Virus record (IMG/VR): IMGVR_UViG_3300032086_000519
Span: 1 to 29,575 of that record
DNA: 29,575 bases
DNA from: a virus
Strand: one strand, 5' to 3'
A program made the position numbers and the translations under genes. This document shows positions 1-27,305 of this stretch, piece after piece (the stretch's first letter is position 1; every line of letters starts with the position of its first letter). Below the pieces are notes generated by a model, which worked only from the letters and a program-made list of their open reading frames with translations, did no database searches and was not told the DNA's origin.

Positions 1-1394
1 AGACATGTCGAAAGTGGGGCTACCAGATAGCCACAGTCGATGGTCAGAACGTACAGGTTGCTAATTATAGAAGCAGAGACGGTCAGCTTGTTGGGCAGAA
101 GATTAGATATGCCGACAAGTCATTCAAGGTACGAGGTGAACTACTAGGACTGTACGGTCAGCATCTTTGGAAAGACGGTGGACCAAGGGTCATCGTTACC
201 GAAGGCGAGATAGACGCACTGTCTGTTAGCCAAGCATGGGGTAACAAGTGGGCAGTCGTCAGCATACCGCACGGTGCTGGGTCGGCTAAGAAGCATGTGG
301 CACAGGCGTTGGATTGGTTGGAACGGTTCGACAGTGTCATCTTCATGTTCGATATGGATGATGCTGGGAGAAAGGGAGCAGCCGACTGCGCCCAGCTCAT
401 AACACCTGGCAAAGCTAAGATTGCAGAGCTGCCACTAAAAGACCCGAATGACCTGTTGGTCGAAGGACGTTCAGCCGACATTGTGCAAGCCACATTCAAC
501 GCAAGGGAGTACCGACCTGACGGCATAGTCGGACGGGAAGAACTGTGGAACGTACTGAGTGAAGAGACACACACCAGCAGTGTGCCGTATCCCTACACAG
601 CACTGAATGGAATGACCCACGGACTAAGGCTAGGTGAACTGGTCACGGTCTGTGCAGGGTCAGGTATAGGCAAGTCGTTGTTCTGTCGGGAGATAGCCTA
701 CCACCTACTCATGCAGGGTGAGACGGTTGGCTACATCGCGTTGGAAGAAAGCGTAAGGCGTACAGCGTTAGGCATACTTGGTCTGCACATGGGCAAACCG
801 TTGCACCTTGAAAGCAAGCTGGACCTTGACGAGTTGGCTGAACCGTTTGGTCAAACCATCGGCAACGGTAACTTCTTTACCTACGACCATTGGGGTAGCT
901 GCGACAGTGACAACCTGCTCAGTAAGGTCCGTTACCTTTGCAAAGGCATGGGGTGTAGCTGGATATTTTTAGACCATCTGTCAATCGTCGTATCGGGGTT
1001 TGCAGGGGATGACGAAAGACGGTTGATCGACAACACAATGACCAAACTACGGTCGCTCGTTGAACAAACAGGGTGTGGCATGGTCGTCGTTTCTCATCTC
1101 AAAAGACCTGCGGGGGTGGGTCATGAGGAAGGAGCGACGACCAGCCTTGCCCACCTACGAGGCAGCGCAGCCATAGCCCAACTATCGGACATAGTGGTGG
1201 GCATGGAACGGAACCAACAAGCAGAACAGTCAGCCAATCAGACACGCATACGTGTGTTGAAGAACCGTTTCACAGGAGAGACGGGACTGGCTGGCGAACT
1301 TTACTACGACAACGACACAGGAAGACTAAATGAAACGGATACTACTGCTCTTAAATCTGGCACTGACATTACCGTCGATAACGCTCCGTTCTAG
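1..1394 (+). CDS. Primase-helicase (T7 gp4-like), 5'-truncated by window edge
   Basis: This gene unwinds DNA at the phage fork and makes primers for the phage polymerase. The open frame runs from base 3 with no stop, so the N-terminal zinc-finger part lies outside the window. The visible protein starts inside the RNA polymerase domain (CRKWGYQ). A TOPRIM core follows, with VTEGEIDALS and later FMFDMDDAGRKG supplying the acidic metal ligands. The RecA-like helicase half has a Walker A loop (AGSGIGKS), a Walker B strand (WIFLDHLSIVV), motif H3 (VVVSHLKRP) and the segment RGSAAIAQLSDIVVGMERNQQ. The near-C-terminal VLKNRFTGETGLAG also matches T7 gp4. The protein ends in DNAPF. In T7 gp4 the C-terminal phenylalanine of an acidic tail contacts the polymerase, and the ending here fits that role by inference. 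The last 65 bases overlap the lysozyme gene. Assignment is very sure. Confidence 0.96.
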   Translation, partial: TCRKWGYQIATVDGQNVQVANYRSRDGQLVGQKIRYADKSFKVRGELLGLYGQHLWKDGGPRVIVTEGEIDALSVSQAWGNKWAVVSIPHGAGSAKKHVAQALDWLERFDSVIFMFDMDDAGRKGAADCAQLITPGKAKIAELPLKDPNDLLVEGRSADIVQATFNAREYRPDGIVGREELWNVLSEETHTSSVPYPYTALNGMTHGLRLGELVTVCAGSGIGKSLFCREIAYHLLMQGETVGYIALEESVRRTALGILGLHMGKPLHLESKLDLDELAEPFGQTIGNGNFFTYDHWGSCDSDNLLSKVRYLCKGMGCSWIFLDHLSIVVSGFAGDDERRLIDNTMTKLRSLVEQTGCGMVVVSHLKRPAGVGHEEGATTSLAHLRGSAAIAQLSDIVVGMERNQQAEQSANQTRIRVLKNRFTGETGLAGELYYDNDTGRLNETDTTALKSGTDITVDNAPF

Positions 1395-1734
1395 CGGTGA
1401 TAAACGCACGGACCTGTTCAGGGCCATACGTGATGTGGAAAGCAACGGCAACATGTGGGCAGTCGGTGACGACGGTATGTCCATTGGTCCGTACCAGATC
1501 AGTTACGACTACTGGCTGGACGCATGTAAACAAGACCCGTGGTTGAAACGTGGGTCATGGTTGCACTGCATCTTCAGACCGTATGCCGAGCGAACAATGG
1601 CTGCCTACTGGAAACTATACGGACCAGCCGTACCTAGCTACGAGCAACTGGCACGTATCCATAACGGAGGACCACTCGGCTACAAAAAACCACAAACCAA
1701 AGCGTACTGGAGGCGCGTGCAAGGACGACTATGA
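1330..1734 (+). CDS. Invertebrate-type (destabilase-like) lysozyme, probable endolysin with signal/SAR segment
   Basis: This 134-aa protein resembles i-type lysozymes, which cut the MurNAc-GlcNAc bond of peptidoglycan. Visible matches are DVESNGN (Glu37 in the catalytic Glu position), GDDGMSIGPYQISYDYWLD (Asp47/Asp48 near the catalytic Asp, then the typical GPYQI..YW block) and ARIHNGGPLGYKK followed by YWRRVQ. The last block is very close to the C-terminal part of clam lysozyme as I recall it. Only two cysteines remain (Cys66 and about Cys80), unlike the disulfide-rich animal enzymes. Residues 1-19 are KR plus a leucine-rich hydrophobic stretch, so export by Sec or a signal-anchor-release (SAR) mechanism is likely. 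AGGAAG five bases before the ATG supports the start. The gene sits where T7 keeps replication genes, not next to a holin. Lysis function is inferred. Confidence 0.85.
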   Translation: MKRILLLLNLALTLPSITLRSSGDKRTDLFRAIRDVESNGNMWAVGDDGMSIGPYQISYDYWLDACKQDPWLKRGSWLHCIFRPYAERTMAAYWKLYGPAVPSYEQLARIHNGGPLGYKKPQTKAYWRRVQGRL

Positions 1735-2240: not shown

Positions 2241-4102
2241 AAGACGTAACACTATACTTCGACATAGAGACGAACGCAGTCGAAGACTTTGCCACGCTCA
2301 AGGGTGTGGAAAAGATACACTGCATGTCGGTCTATAATCCGATCAGCCAGAAGATGACCACCTTCACCACCGACACAATCCACATGGGTTTAGCCATGCT
2401 TGGTGAAGCAAAGTACATCTGTGGTCACAACATTATTAACTTCGATCTGCCAGTCATGAAGAAGCTGCTGAACTGGCAACCCAACGGTAACGTGTTGGAC
2501 ACACTGGTCACCAGTAGGTGTATGCATAGCGACATTCGTGGCGTGGACATGCAACGTGGTGATGATTTTCCCAAGGAACTGTGGGGCAGTCACAGTCTCA
2601 AAGCATGGGGCTGGCGACTAGGACTGACCAAAGGTAACTACGGTGAGCAGGAACATGCTTGGGACACATACAACGAAGACATGAAGGACTACTGTGAGCG
2701 TGACGTACTGGTCACTGTAAAGCTTGCACAGTTCCTGAAGGAGGATGAACCGTCCGTCAACATGCTGACCATCGAACACAGGTTCGCTAATATAATAAGA
2801 AGGCAGGAGCTTCGTGGCTTTACGTTTGATGAAGCAGCAGCACAGGACTTGTTGCAGACGCTGACCGTTCGACGGGCTGAACTACGTGACGAACTACAGA
2901 CTGTCTTTCCACCAACACACGAAGAGATGAAGACGGCTGCTGGCTGGTCTGTTGTTGTGGACGGTGAAGAATACACAGCCAAGACCAAGGGTGATTTAAA
3001 GGCTGTGTTGAAAGAAGCAGGACAACCACAGGCAAGAGCCAATGATGCTGAGAAGCAAGGCAACAAGATCAGGACAACACCCTTTAATCCAGGAAGCAGG
3101 GAACAGATAGCAGCTCGTCTTAAAGCTTTAGGGTGGGAGCCGACAGTCTTTACACCTGACGGTCGTGCAAAGATTGACGAAGGTGTACTCAAAGGTATTA
3201 ACCATCCGTCAGCAGTAAAGCTGTTGGAGTACCTGATGGTTGTGAAACGTCTGGGACAATTAGCCGAAGGTAAGAACGGTTGGCTCAGTTGTGTACAGAA
3301 CGGACGTATACACGGTCAGGTCAACACCAACGGAGCCGTCACAGGACGTTGTACCCACAGCCTACCTAACGTAGCACAAGTACCAGCAGTCCGTGCTGAG
3401 TACGGCAAGGAGTGTCGGGCATTGTTCACAGCAGGTGAAGGCTTTGACCTTGTTGGTGTGGATGCTAGTGGACTGGAGTTACGTTGTCTTGCCCACTACC
3501 TAGCACTGTTCGACGGTGGTGAATACGGACGCTACCTGTTGGAAGACGATATTCACACCGTCAACCAAAACGCTGCTGGTCTGGAGACAAGGGACCAAGC
3601 CAAGACGTTTATCTACGCATTCCTGTATGGTGCAGGTGACGCAAAGATAGGTGACATTGTTGGGGGTACAGCCAAAGAAGGTAAGCAACTGAAGACACGG
3701 TTCCTTGCCAAAACACCAGCACTGGCTCGCCTCAAGAAGATCGTTGAGGAACGTGTTAAAAAGTACGGCTTTCTCAAAGGCATTGACGGACGTGTGCTTC
3801 CTATACGCAGCGAACACGCAGCACTAAACACATTACTACAGTCGTGTGGTGCTGTTGCCATGAAGCAAGCGTTGGTTCGATGTGACCAAGCCCTGCGAAA
3901 ATTAAGCTGGCAATACGGAAAAGATTGGGCATGGGTAGCTAATATCCATGACGAATTTCAAGCAGAGGTTGACCCACTCAAGGCTGACTCTTACGGCAAG
4001 ATTGCTGTGGAGAGCATACGCATTGCTGGTGATGACCTGCGTTTCAACTGCCCACTCGATGGTGAGTACAAGGTGGGCAAGAACTGGGCAGACACACATT
4101 GA
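2237..4102 (+). CDS. Family A DNA polymerase with 3'-5' exonuclease (T7 gp5-like)
   Basis: This is the replicative polymerase, 621 aa against 704 in T7. The proofreading domain shows Exo I (YFDIETNA, Asp9 and Glu11), Exo II (GHNIINFDLP, Asp70) and Exo III (DYCERDVLVT, Asp156). The polymerase domain has motif A (VGVDASGLELRCLAH, Asp409), motif B (RDQAKTFIYAFLYGAGD, Arg452, Lys456, Tyr460) and motif C (NIHDEFQAEV, Asp572 and Glu573). Tyr460 falls where E. coli Pol I has Phe762 and T7 has Tyr526. The middle region (about residues 225-345) is shorter than in T7, where the thioredoxin-binding insert of the thumb lies. Whether this enzyme uses thioredoxin for processivity cannot be read from sequence. 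The gene follows its neighbour with an ATGA overlap and precedes a GTG-started nuclease gene by three bases. Confidence 0.97.
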   Translation: MKDVTLYFDIETNAVEDFATLKGVEKIHCMSVYNPISQKMTTFTTDTIHMGLAMLGEAKYICGHNIINFDLPVMKKLLNWQPNGNVLDTLVTSRCMHSDIRGVDMQRGDDFPKELWGSHSLKAWGWRLGLTKGNYGEQEHAWDTYNEDMKDYCERDVLVTVKLAQFLKEDEPSVNMLTIEHRFANIIRRQELRGFTFDEAAAQDLLQTLTVRRAELRDELQTVFPPTHEEMKTAAGWSVVVDGEEYTAKTKGDLKAVLKEAGQPQARANDAEKQGNKIRTTPFNPGSREQIAARLKALGWEPTVFTPDGRAKIDEGVLKGINHPSAVKLLEYLMVVKRLGQLAEGKNGWLSCVQNGRIHGQVNTNGAVTGRCTHSLPNVAQVPAVRAEYGKECRALFTAGEGFDLVGVDASGLELRCLAHYLALFDGGEYGRYLLEDDIHTVNQNAAGLETRDQAKTFIYAFLYGAGDAKIGDIVGGTAKEGKQLKTRFLAKTPALARLKKIVEERVKKYGFLKGIDGRVLPIRSEHAALNTLLQSCGAVAMKQALVRCDQALRKLSWQYGKDWAWVANIHDEFQAEVDPLKADSYGKIAVESIRIAGDDLRFNCPLDGEYKVGKNWADTH

Positions 4103-10448: not shown

Positions 10449-11285
10449 ATGGCAGAATTAAGCCGTGTAACGATAAACGAACTAACACCTGGCGAAGTAG
10501 AGCCAGCCGAACAACCAGCAACTGAAGAAGCTGCTCCCCAAGTCCCACACAACACAATGACTCAAGGCGAGTTACCGTTGGAGACTGAAGAGCAACAGCC
10601 ACACCTAGCTGACAGTTCAGAGGAAGAAGGACAAGACCCTGAAAAGGGTGGACTGGAAATACGCAAGGACGACCGTCCTGAATGGTTACCTGAGAAATTC
10701 AACAGTGTGGAAGACATGGCTAAAGCCTACTCCGAGTTGGAAAAGAAGATCGGTCAGCCACAGGAAAAGAACGACAACAGTGAGACAGTTAGTGAAGGTC
10801 AGGAAACAATCCAGAATGCCAGCGTTGAGTTTTTCGAGAAAGGTGAACTGTCCGAAGACACATACGAAGCACTTGCCAAGGCAGGTCTGAGTCGTGAGTT
10901 GGTAGACAGTTATGTTGCTGGTCAGTCGGCTTTAATACAGAACGAGCAGGACGCTATCCGAAACGTAGCTGGTAATGACTACGATAAAATGTCCGAGTGG
11001 GCAGGTAAGAACCTCAGTGACGACGAGATGAGAGCGTACAACGACGCTGTTACATCAGGTACTATCGACCAAGCCAAGTTCGCTGTGAGTGGACTGTATG
11101 CCCGTTACAAGGCTGAGAACGGTAACCAACCCACGTTAACAATGGGTAACACCGCTGGCTCTGGTTCAATGCCATTCTCCGACATGCAAGACGTTCGTCG
11201 TGCCATGTCTGACCCACGTTACAAAGCAGGTGACAAAGCCTACCACGCAGAAGTGGACAGGAGGTTAGCTGTTAGCAATCTTTAA
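10449..11285 (+). CDS. Capsid assembly scaffolding protein, T7 gp9-like
   Basis: This 278-aa acidic protein directs procapsid assembly and is expelled when DNA enters. The N-terminal half is Glu- and Pro-rich and low in complexity (residues 10-75), then a helical segment (EDMAKAYSELEKKIG) begins. The C-terminal part follows T7 gp9 closely: FFEKGELSEDTYEALAKAGL, then VDSYVAGQSALI and, near the end, DVRRAMSDPRYKAGDKAY followed by VDRRLAVSNL. T7 gp9 ends in the same way (AMSDPRY...VIDSNF). An AAGGA lies 12 bases before the ATG. The adjacent portal and capsid genes confirm the role. Confidence 0.94.
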   Translation: MAELSRVTINELTPGEVEPAEQPATEEAAPQVPHNTMTQGELPLETEEQQPHLADSSEEEGQDPEKGGLEIRKDDRPEWLPEKFNSVEDMAKAYSELEKKIGQPQEKNDNSETVSEGQETIQNASVEFFEKGELSEDTYEALAKAGLSRELVDSYVAGQSALIQNEQDAIRNVAGNDYDKMSEWAGKNLSDDEMRAYNDAVTSGTIDQAKFAVSGLYARYKAENGNQPTLTMGNTAGSGSMPFSDMQDVRRAMSDPRYKAGDKAYHAEVDRRLAVSNL

Positions 11286-11299
11286 CCGAAGGAATAATC

Positions 11300-11476
11300 A
11301 TGCAATTCGTACAAGCAAATTGGGAAGCAATACTTCTCGTACTTACGTCGGCTGTTGCCCTAGCATCTGCTGTGGCAGCACTAACCCCAACACCAAAGGA
11401 CGACAGTATAGTCAAGAAGGTCTACGGACTACTCGACGCACTGGCGTTGAACGTAGGCAAAGCCAAAGATAAGTGA
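11300..11476 (+). CDS. 58-aa single-membrane-segment protein, holin-like
   Basis: This short gene starts at ATG 11300 with GAAGGAA six bases upstream. It encodes MQFVQANWEA, a hydrophobic segment (ILLVLTSAVALASAVAAL, residues 11-28), then TPTPKDDSIVKKVYGLLD and a basic end. The 'ASxVAALTPTPKDD...LDALALNVGKAK' pattern recurs in short proteins of many phages. It would be an inner-membrane protein with a soluble C-terminus. It is followed by a GTGA overlap into the next small gene and by a lipoprotein gene, so the trio resembles a lysis cassette. A holin role is inferred from size and context, and an alternative is an inner-membrane accessory protein. Confidence 0.72.
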   Translation: MQFVQANWEAILLVLTSAVALASAVAALTPTPKDDSIVKKVYGLLDALALNVGKAKDK

Positions 11477-11679
11477 GTTTCCTCACAACGATACTACGTA
11501 CAATCTTTGAAGCACTTTTTAAAAACGTCATCAATGAAGTTAAAAAACCAGTTAAAGCTGAAGACGCTCCTAACAGCCCTGATCGTGACCGCTTTCTTGA
11601 GCGGATGCGGGGCTTCGAGGGTAGTCTTCATCGACTCCCAGAGTCAAATCTTTCGAGTGGGACCAAACGTAAAAGGTAA
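11473..11679 (+). CDS. Small overlapping protein, possible spanin-like partner
   Basis: This 68-aa frame starts with GTG inside the GTGA overlap with the holin-like gene and contains the start of the lipoprotein gene in another frame. Residues 2-22 form an amphipathic to hydrophobic helix (SFLTTILRTIFEALFKNVIN), followed by EVKKPVKAEDAPNSPDRDRFLERMRGF and a basic end (GTKRKR). The AED..P..RDRFL.RMR pattern looks familiar from small phage proteins beside lysis genes. The arrangement, with a lipoprotein frame +1 to it and starting inside it, mirrors Rz/Rz1, but it is too short and lacks an obvious long coiled coil. Whether it is a spanin subunit is speculative. Confidence 0.5.
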   Translation: MSFLTTILRTIFEALFKNVINEVKKPVKAEDAPNSPDRDRFLERMRGFEGSLHRLPESNLSSGTKRKR

Positions 11680-11782
11680 GGTCTACCACTGGAATGGCGA
11701 GGAGTGGCAACTAAGCGGCAACAAGGTTGAGTACCCAGAGGGTCACTTTGTTGGCGGGTTAACTCCCGAAGACGACGACTAA
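11534..11782 (+). CDS. Small lipoprotein, possible outer-membrane spanin (Rz1-like) or lysis accessory
   Basis: This gene encodes an 82-aa lipoprotein. The ATG at 11534 is preferred over a TTG at 11507 because it puts the basic residues and hydrophobic core of the signal in the usual places (MKLKNQLKLKTLLTALIV, then AFLSGCGAS). LSGC is a lipobox, so the mature protein would start at Cys24 and be lipid-anchored. The mature part reads SRVVFIDSQSQIFRVGPNVK, then KVYHWNGEEWQLSGNKVEYPEG, and ends in acidic residues (EDDD). Similar phage lipoproteins with 'VYV...GW..S.NKV.LPEG' ends occur beside lysis genes. It overlaps the preceding frame by 146 bases. An Rz1-like role is inferred from the nesting. 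Confidence 0.68.
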   Translation: MKLKNQLKLKTLLTALIVTAFLSGCGASRVVFIDSQSQIFRVGPNVKGKVYHWNGEEWQLSGNKVEYPEGHFVGGLTPEDDD

Positions 11783-11907: not shown

Positions 11908-12966
11908 ATGGCAAATTCAGACACATCCCCATCACGGGTAGGTTTAGTTGAAGGTGGTTCCGACAACCAAGCGTTGTTCCTCAAAAAGTTCAGTGGTGAG
12001 ATTCTTACCACGTTTGAGGAAAAGAACATCATGAAACCCCTCCACACTATCCGTACTATTCAGAACGGTAAGTCCGCACAGTTCCCAGTGACTGGTGTAG
12101 CAACAGCTTCATACCACACACCTGGCCAGAACATTGCTGACGCAGGTAACAGCTACCTTTCCGATATTAAGAAGACCGAGAAGGTCATTAACATCGACAA
12201 GGTACTTCTAGCATCTTCGTTCCTTGCGAACATTGATGACGTAATGAACCACTATGACATTCGCAGCGTCTACGCTAACGAGCTTGGCAATGTACTTGCT
12301 AACCGTTTCGACACTGCTGTCATCAAGACGTTCATAGCTGCTGCCCGTTCTTCTGCTAATCTCTCGCAGACTGCTAAGACTGGTGGACAACTCGACGTTA
12401 CCGCTAACAGCTTTACCGCTGACAGTGACGAAGCAACTGGTGGACTTACTGGCGCACAACTTATCGCTGCTCTGTTCACTGCTGCTCAGAAGCTTGATGA
12501 GAATGACGTATCTGGCGACGGACGCTTCTGCGTGTTGTCACCTGAGAATTACTACAAGCTCATCACTGGTGGTGGTGCTAATGGTCAGATCAACGTAGCC
12601 AACAGTGCGGTTAACTCCGACATTGGTGGTCAAGGTTCTGTTGCCACTGGTAACATCCCACAGATTGCTGGCATCAGCATCTTCAAGAGCAACCACGTAC
12701 CTACCACGGACCTATCCAGTACAGCTACTGGTGACGGAGCGTCAAACAATGACGTATTCGGTGGCAGCGGTGCTGGCTACAACGGTGACTTTTCTGACAC
12801 TGTTGGTATTGTTGCCCATTCCTCCGCTGTTGGTACGGTCAAACTACTCGACCTTGCTACCGAGTCGGAATACCAGATTGAGCGTCAAGGCACATTGTTC
12901 GTTGCAAAGTATGCAATGGGACACGGTGTACTTCGCCCTGAGTCTTGTATCGAACTGGTCAAGTAA
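11908..12966 (+). CDS. Major capsid protein, T7 gp10A-like
   Basis: This HK97-fold protein builds the icosahedral head. It has 352 aa, close to T7 gp10A (345). Family blocks are NQALFLKKFSGEILTTFEEK, TIRTIQNGKSAQFPVTG, the segment around KTEKVINIDKVLLASSFLANI, DDVMNHYDIRSVYANELG and the C-terminal LATESEYQIERQGTLFVAKY followed by MGHGVLRPESCIEL. The ATG has GAAAGG seven bases upstream. A T7-style -1 frameshift product (10B) is not indicated, because the alternative frame stops only four codons past the normal stop. A large share of the preceding non-coding DNA and a terminator-like structure behind it suggest that this gene is a separately controlled, highly expressed unit. Confidence 0.97.
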   Translation: MANSDTSPSRVGLVEGGSDNQALFLKKFSGEILTTFEEKNIMKPLHTIRTIQNGKSAQFPVTGVATASYHTPGQNIADAGNSYLSDIKKTEKVINIDKVLLASSFLANIDDVMNHYDIRSVYANELGNVLANRFDTAVIKTFIAAARSSANLSQTAKTGGQLDVTANSFTADSDEATGGLTGAQLIAALFTAAQKLDENDVSGDGRFCVLSPENYYKLITGGGANGQINVANSAVNSDIGGQGSVATGNIPQIAGISIFKSNHVPTTDLSSTATGDGASNNDVFGGSGAGYNGDFSDTVGIVAHSSAVGTVKLLDLATESEYQIERQGTLFVAKYAMGHGVLRPESCIELVK

Positions 12967-26417: not shown

Positions 26418-27032
26418 ATGGCTATTACCCAAACTCACTCTCGAATGGTCAGCGACGTGGACGCTGGCAGCACCTACCTAACAGGAACAATCGGCACAGC
26501 AGCCAACAACATTGTTCAACTGGACAGCACTGCAAAACTACCAGCAGTAGACGGTAGCCAACTGATAAACGTAAGTGCAGGGAAAGTCCTACAACACGTA
26601 CACGCTTCTGTATCTTCTGTGTTAACAGGCACAACCGTAATGAATGCGGATGATACAATTCCTCAAAATACCGAAGGGAACGAGGTAATAACGCTTGCTA
26701 TAACCCCGACAAGCGCAACTAGCCGTCTTTTGATAACAGCCAACATCTTCCACTCTGCTGAAATATCCGCATACAACATGATAACGGCATTGTTTCAAGA
26801 CACAACAGCCGATGCTTTAGCTGCTGTTATGGAAGATGTGCGAGTCAGTACCGCTCCATTAGTAACACCATTAATCTACGAAATGGCAGCAGGAACAACT
26901 TCAGCAACTACTTTTAAAATTAGAGCAGGAGCTGGGTCAGCGGGAACTTATACATTAAATGGGTTTTCTGGCAGTCGTATTTTTGGGGGCGTTGCCTCAA
27001 CTACTTTAAGCATAATGGAGCTAAGCGTATAA
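26418..27032 (+). CDS. Second fibre/receptor-binding protein with C1q/TNF-like beta domain
   Basis: This 204-aa protein begins AITQTHSRMVSDVDAGSTYL and has a short collagen-free stalk-like part (GTAANNIVQLDSTAKLPAVD). The second half is a beta-sandwich pattern typical of phage fibre tips: VLQHVHASVSSVLTGTTV, TPTSATSRLLITANIFHS and TLNGFSGSRIFGGVASTT followed by LSIMELSV. It resembles small fibre proteins that follow the main tail fibre gene in marine podophages. It lacks its own tail-anchor domain, so it may bind the spike or another fibre. The start at 26418 is chosen by the recurring MAIT.(x)..RM pattern; the nearest AGGA is about 20 bases upstream, so initiation is weak. Confidence 0.7.
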   Translation: MAITQTHSRMVSDVDAGSTYLTGTIGTAANNIVQLDSTAKLPAVDGSQLINVSAGKVLQHVHASVSSVLTGTTVMNADDTIPQNTEGNEVITLAITPTSATSRLLITANIFHSAEISAYNMITALFQDTTADALAAVMEDVRVSTAPLVTPLIYEMAAGTTSATTFKIRAGAGSAGTYTLNGFSGSRIFGGVASTTLSIMELSV

Positions 27033-27035
27033 AAC

Positions 27036-27305
27036 ATGGAACCAATGGCTGAACAAATCTCACACTTTCTCGACAGCATCCTAGCTGTTGTTCTTGGCGT
27101 ATTCGGTTGGATCGGTAAAAAGTTTAGTGATAGACTTGATAGCGATGAGAAACGTTTAACAAAAATAGAAGTAGAACTAGCTGCTCAACATGAACGTGAT
27201 ATATCCGTTGAGAAACGTATGCAAGGTCTGGAACAGAAACTAGAAGCAATGAACGATAAGCTTGATCGTCTGCTTGAGTTAATCATGAAGAACCAATCAC
27301 GATGA
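27036..27305 (+). CDS. Small membrane plus coiled-coil protein, holin- or spanin-like
   Basis: This 89-aa protein has one hydrophobic segment near its N-terminus (ILAVVLGVFGWIG, residues 15-27) and then a charged coiled coil to the end (heptad-like LTKIEVELAAQHERDISVEK, GLEQKLEAMNDKLDRLLELI). The layout is like XhlA-type hemolysin/holin partners and like inner-membrane spanins (Rz). Position after the fibre genes and before the terminase genes is where T7 has gp17.5 (holin) and gp18.5 (Rz). ATG 27036 is the longest start; ATG 27045 (MAEQ) is equally possible. Neither has a good Shine-Dalgarno. It could pair with the lipoprotein encoded at 11534-11782 despite the distance, which is speculation. 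Confidence 0.68.
   Translation: MEPMAEQISHFLDSILAVVLGVFGWIGKKFSDRLDSDEKRLTKIEVELAAQHERDISVEKRMQGLEQKLEAMNDKLDRLLELIMKNQSR

Follow-up and report, generated by a model that had tools for sequence, protein, structure and literature searches.

Three small overlapping genes, a candidate lysis module, in the scaffold-capsid slot of an uncultured T7-like phage

The DNA analysed here (the window), a linear viral contig of 29,575 bases, belongs to an uncultured T7-like podovirus. Its genes follow the T7 order: primase/helicase, DNA polymerase, exonuclease, portal, scaffold, major capsid, tail tubular, internal virion, fibre and terminase. The slot between the scaffold, or capsid assembly, gene (10449..11285, + strand; PF05396, 2.6e-16; phrog_1052, 2.7e-48) on the left and the major capsid gene (11908..12966, + strand; PF21703, 5.7e-69) on the right is filled by three small overlapping ORFs, P1, P2 and P3. 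The sequence-only reading, made before any database was searched, had placed three ORFs at 11300-11782 between scaffold and capsid genes; all three are present and both flanks are confirmed by the family matches. The gap between terS and terL is only 55 bases long. A 204-aa protein encoded 3' of the fibre gene (26418-27032) matches PF05475 (Pgp3 C-terminal domain) weakly, at 1.4e-5, just above the cut-off, and is probably a fibre-associated trimeric domain.

P1 (11300..11476, + strand) is a protein of 58 aa with the motif LTPTPKDD and, as had been read from the letters, one TM helix, whose best 19-residue Kyte-Doolittle mean is 2.44. It matched none of the known holin families; its matches are to phrog_9685 (E 3.6e-14) and phrog_402, both of unknown function, and no Pfam family matched. 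Outside the T7-like context an endolysin, holin or spanin family lies at most about 3 kb from the P1 homologue in 27 of 41 distinct loci, so that P1, with its one TM, belongs to the small membrane proteins whose genes accompany lysis genes; this count describes an association rather than an enrichment, because about six lineages account for the 27 loci and the neighbour queries were drawn from the same loci. The neighbouring families are Amidase_3, Phage_lysozyme, Peptidase_M15, GTA_holin_3TM and the Rz-like spanins phrog_739 and phrog_812. Another holin or holin candidate is encoded in addition to the P1 homologue in the Pseudomonas phage LUZ100 (the T7-type holin gp50) and in L132 and L153 (GTA_holin_3TM). 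P1 is plausibly a holin; it would be a small membrane component of the phage's lysis programme, most likely a holin or holin regulator, and is treated below as a candidate for a holin or for an accessory membrane protein in lysis.

A rival candidate for the holin role is an 89-aa protein encoded before terS (27036..27305, + strand). It has a TM helix and a coiled coil, in agreement with the second membrane/coiled-coil protein claimed earlier at this place, and matches phrog_462 (8.4e-7) and the holin family phrog_1296 (0.0035). It sits at what we take to be the position of T7 gene 17.5 (holin), and homologues occur in 7/7 searched records of the window's capsid clade, whatever the slot type. 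The presumed endolysin is a lysozyme-like protein encoded near the primase gene (1330..1734, + strand; Destabilase PF05497, 9.4e-9). This lysozyme, of the Destabilase (invertebrate-type) family, was found in only one of the 13 related records searched. In T7 the lysozyme gene also lies far upstream, near the primase gene. The lysis genes had been described as split; the upstream lysozyme is confirmed, but the split itself is ordinary for T7-like phages, since the T7 arrangement has the same lysozyme placement.

P2 (68 aa; 11473..11679, + strand) starts at a GTG that overlaps the TGA stop of P1 (GTGA), just as first described. It has an N-terminal amphipathic helix and a basic C-terminal half, and would be the inner partner of a spanin-like pair. 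The P2 family shares a layout in which a KASDA-like linker joins a short amphipathic helix to a charged helix behind it. The best hydrophobic segment of P2 scores 1.11 on the Kyte-Doolittle scale, which is amphipathic and below TM grade; 30 of the 31 aligned members of the type-A P2 family, the window P2 included, score 1.6 or less, and polar or charged residues lie inside the helix segment. An i-spanin is usually defined as an adjacent protein with an N-terminal TM helix, and P2, at 1.11, is not an i-spanin in that sense because it has no TM-grade segment. The pair could still be a classical two-component spanin in which P2 is a regular i-spanin; its N-terminal helix, though short and of low hydrophobicity, would then cross the inner membrane. 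Such a reading is consistent with the gene order and +1 frame, which are those of Rz/Rz1, with the combined soluble length of P2 and P3 (about 100 residues, within the 62-300 of known pairs), and with the P2 proteins of LUZ100 and L109, which reach 1.76 and 1.98. The type-A scores and the polar or charged residues within the segment argue against it, as do the canonical Rz-like partners of LUZ100-type lipoproteins, which score about 2.0-2.25 (1.99 in phage A18P4 and 2.25 in phage AF), and we consider it a rather unlikely, though serious, alternative.

The charge of P2 bears on another possibility. For spanin-less phages, short amphipathic peptides called disruptins have been proposed (PMC12819732), and P2, with its short amphipathic helix and a net charge of +5 in the window, might resemble an antimicrobial peptide that exits through the holin lesion, P3 merely docking it at the outer membrane. 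The charge, however, is not conserved in the P2 family, where it ranges from -4 to +9 with a median of +3, and no lipoprotein partner is described for the archetype, whereas P2 goes together with P3. A disruptin-like action of this kind therefore appears unlikely.

P3 (11534..11782, + strand) is an 82-aa lipoprotein read in the +1 frame relative to P2, with the lipobox LSGC and the mature C1 at 11606; it would be the outer-membrane, o-spanin-like partner. Its ORF also contains an upstream TTG (11507), but this codon is lacking in the close homologues L024 and L088, which start at the ATG/GTG position, and the start was therefore set to the ATG at 11534. The LSGC lipoprotein in the +1 frame reported from the sequence is thereby upheld with a corrected start. 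Across all six frames the window has no ORF with a lipoprotein signal other than P3, and such ORFs were absent from its 20 first-order Markov shuffles. The LSGC lipobox and a basic n-region are those expected of an o-spanin lipoprotein. The lipobox Cys and the Gly before it are invariant in 13/13 aligned type-A homologues, and the family pattern is RVVFVD...VRLGPDVKGHVY...W..S.NKV.LPEGWYAG. Compared with spanin families, the window P3 gave no significant match (best phrog_1275, E 0.079). P3 alone was also considered as a unimolecular spanin and was rejected, as its C-terminus is acidic and has neither a hydrophobic segment nor a TM helix.

With a cut-off of E 0.01 the P3 family was not found among 50,697 phage records; the phage-record searches, one of which used as query a consensus drafted by eye from the family alignment rather than a natural protein, gave nothing convincing. 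Bacterial genomes contained a single P3 fragment, in a Neomarinimicrobiota MAG. As far as the searched collections go, P3 is thus a gene family of uncultured viruses. Structure prediction for full-length P3 (13 sequences) was too poor for use (pLDDT 47); for the mature protein (38 sequences) the pLDDT was 78.5, and a small, compact, beta-rich domain is predicted. A search of the PDB with this model found no match. Among viral structure models the single match was an 83-aa protein, A0A516LV47, with 43% identity, which probably belongs to the P3 family. Superinfection exclusion is a possible role of small phage lipoproteins, and the predicted compact beta domain would suit P3 as an exclusion or other envelope-modifying lipoprotein with no part in lysis. 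P3, however, is linked to P2 and overlaps it, has a lysis neighbourhood, and occupies a slot in the late structural region that is shared with genes of spanin topology, all of which make such a role improbable.

The overlap between P2 and P3 (11534..11679, + strand) carries a drop in variable wobble columns. P3 starts about 30% into P2, covers about 70% of it and ends 103 bases beyond its stop. Overlapped and embedded classes of spanin genes have been defined (PMC6139136), and in these terms P3 is overlapped, not embedded, because it runs past the P2 stop. The description of the frames as nested therefore holds for the start of P3 inside P2 in the +1 frame but not for its end. Variable third-position columns were compared between the overlap and the part of each gene standing alone in 11 distinct close homologues, the window included. 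In the P2 frame 15 of 19 columns vary outside the overlap, against 13 of 47 within it (Fisher p=1.8e-4); in the P3 frame the counts are 27/31 and 16/47 (Fisher p=2.8e-6), both p-values being only approximate because the columns share ancestry. The wobble-position test was relied on instead of a full synonymous-resampling identity test, which assumes saturation. This is the pattern of two coding frames: P2 and P3 are both coding, and chance ORFs were rejected as an explanation, both frames being under selection.

The homologue search found both frames conserved, not one of them only. P2/P3 pairs recur in many viral contigs, also without P1 and without a capsid of the window type. L193 and L202 keep both proteins with an overlap of just 4 bases, so P2 and P3 are each an independent gene. 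Each of the 15 distinct T7-like loci that encode a P1 homologue has an overlapping lipoprotein ORF, and over all loci the lipoprotein frame is +1 in 26 of 26 pairs, although either shifted frame was permitted. The lipoproteins paired with P1 are of several types, mutually unlike in sequence. P1-less P2/P3 pairs are preceded by a 70-aa protein (KPGWKTTEFW...LGYTVSRGLAK; L187:3149-3361, L193:3127-3339, L213:3203-3412) that probably has two TMs and gave only weak holin matches, which were not counted as proof.

The scaffold-capsid slot was surveyed in 47 distinct relatives of the window capsid having enough upstream sequence. Of these, 7 have P1/P3 there, 17 have a lipoprotein whose C-terminal part contains a TM, and 23 have a 155-aa membrane protein with a lipobox ORF in an alternative frame; none of the 47 is without one of these three types. 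The lipoprotein with a C-terminal TM has about 140 aa and u-spanin topology (for example L034:2358-2774 and L011:2331-2768). The alternative frame of the 155-aa gene (L008:409-828 within L008:414-881), found in P1-less capsid relatives, has a conserved LLSGC lipobox. It is open for 139 codons in 29/29 distinct sequences, but when one of them was resampled synonymously 20,000 times it was open in 0 cases; it looks like a further overlapping lipoprotein gene. Neither the 155-aa nor the lipoprotein-TM proteins matched an annotated family, and a lysis label for them is consequently based on topology. In T7-like phages farther away the slot contains small genes of unrelated kinds, such as those for basic peptides in HTVC168P and P-SCSP2, which means that the slot is not universally for lysis. 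These unrelated genes, together with the position between scaffold and capsid, would be compatible with a part of P1-P3 in head assembly or as minor virion proteins. P1 and P2/P3, however, also have homologues outside the window-type capsid context, P1 adjoins lysis genes, and a TM protein with a lipoprotein signal beside it speaks against virion proteins; the proposal was rejected on the lysis neighbourhoods and is very improbable.

Equivalent cassettes in other phages contain recognisable spanin lipoproteins. In LUZ100 the scaffold gene is followed by the P1 homologue gp37, by an unannotated P2-like ORF (L168, 3692-3928) that overlaps the gp37 stop, and by the Rz1-type lipoprotein gp38 (3843-4034). 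Gp38 matches the Rz-like spanin family phrog_1275 (1.6e-12) and, by tblastn, proteins that are annotated as Rz-like/Rz1-like in phages AF and A18P4. The LUZ100 paper reported a lysozyme and a holin and found no spanin (PMC10134795). Lipoproteins downstream of P1 in L087 and L109 match another Rz-like spanin family, phrog_8971 (4e-11 and 4e-10). LUZ100 and the window are alike in the slot, the P1 homologue and the overlapping P2-like ORF and +1 lipoprotein; they differ in that gp38 is recognisably of Rz1 type whereas the window P3 is unlike it in sequence, and in that LUZ100 has gp50.

The lysis role that had been suggested for the cassette gains support at the level of sequence, since P1 homologues adjoin lysis genes and Rz1-like lipoproteins occur in the LUZ100, L087 and L109 cassettes. 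On these grounds we think it likely that P1-P2-P3 are a lysis module in which P2 and P3 act as a two-component spanin, with P2 held by an amphipathic in-plane helix, and P1 is a lysis membrane protein. In the course of events that we infer, which includes the role of P1, the localisation of P2 and P3 and the route of P2 to the periplasm, the holin would open the inner membrane and the lysozyme would remove the wall. P3 would be sent to the outer membrane as a lipoprotein, and P2 would be its partner at the inner-membrane side, anchored by the in-plane helix and not by a TM helix. P2 and P3 would then meet and disrupt the outer membrane.

The layout had been said to copy Rz/Rz1; this is true of the overlapping +1 lipoprotein but not of the anatomy, P2 having no TM-grade helix. 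Like lambda Rz/Rz1 and T7 18.5/18.7, the window has an overlapping gene pair, the second gene in +1 and encoding a small lipoprotein of the outer-membrane type, in the late region of a T7-like phage. Unlike them, its P2 lacks a TM-grade anchor, the pair is overlapped and not fully embedded, and it lies at the scaffold-capsid position instead of between terS and terL. P3 differs from known o-spanins in its predicted compact beta domain and has no significant sequence relation to them. The phiKT disruptin is likewise a short amphipathic-helix protein, proposed to disrupt the outer membrane without an i-spanin (PMC12819732), but P2 is paired with a lipoprotein and its family is not uniformly cationic. 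Unimolecular spanins of the T1 gp11 type have their counterpart in those capsid relatives with a lipoprotein and C-terminal TM in the slot, a TM that the window P3 does not have. Tentatively, the pair may represent an intermediate between spanin and disruptin, in which uncultured marine phages combine an amphipathic protein without a TM helix with a dedicated outer-membrane lipoprotein encoded in an overlapping frame; the slot would then be a place where three or more unrelated lysis-type gene sets take turns.

About 13% of surveyed phages on Gram-negative hosts are without a recognised spanin (PMC6139136). The P1-P3 cassette is a candidate for opening the outer membrane that standard criteria, an adjacent TM protein and clustered lysis genes, would overlook, and it provides a spanin candidate in a phage that is in culture, LUZ100, which was reported as spanin-less. 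A P2 without a TM helix would probe whether spanin function requires a TM helix in the inner membrane.
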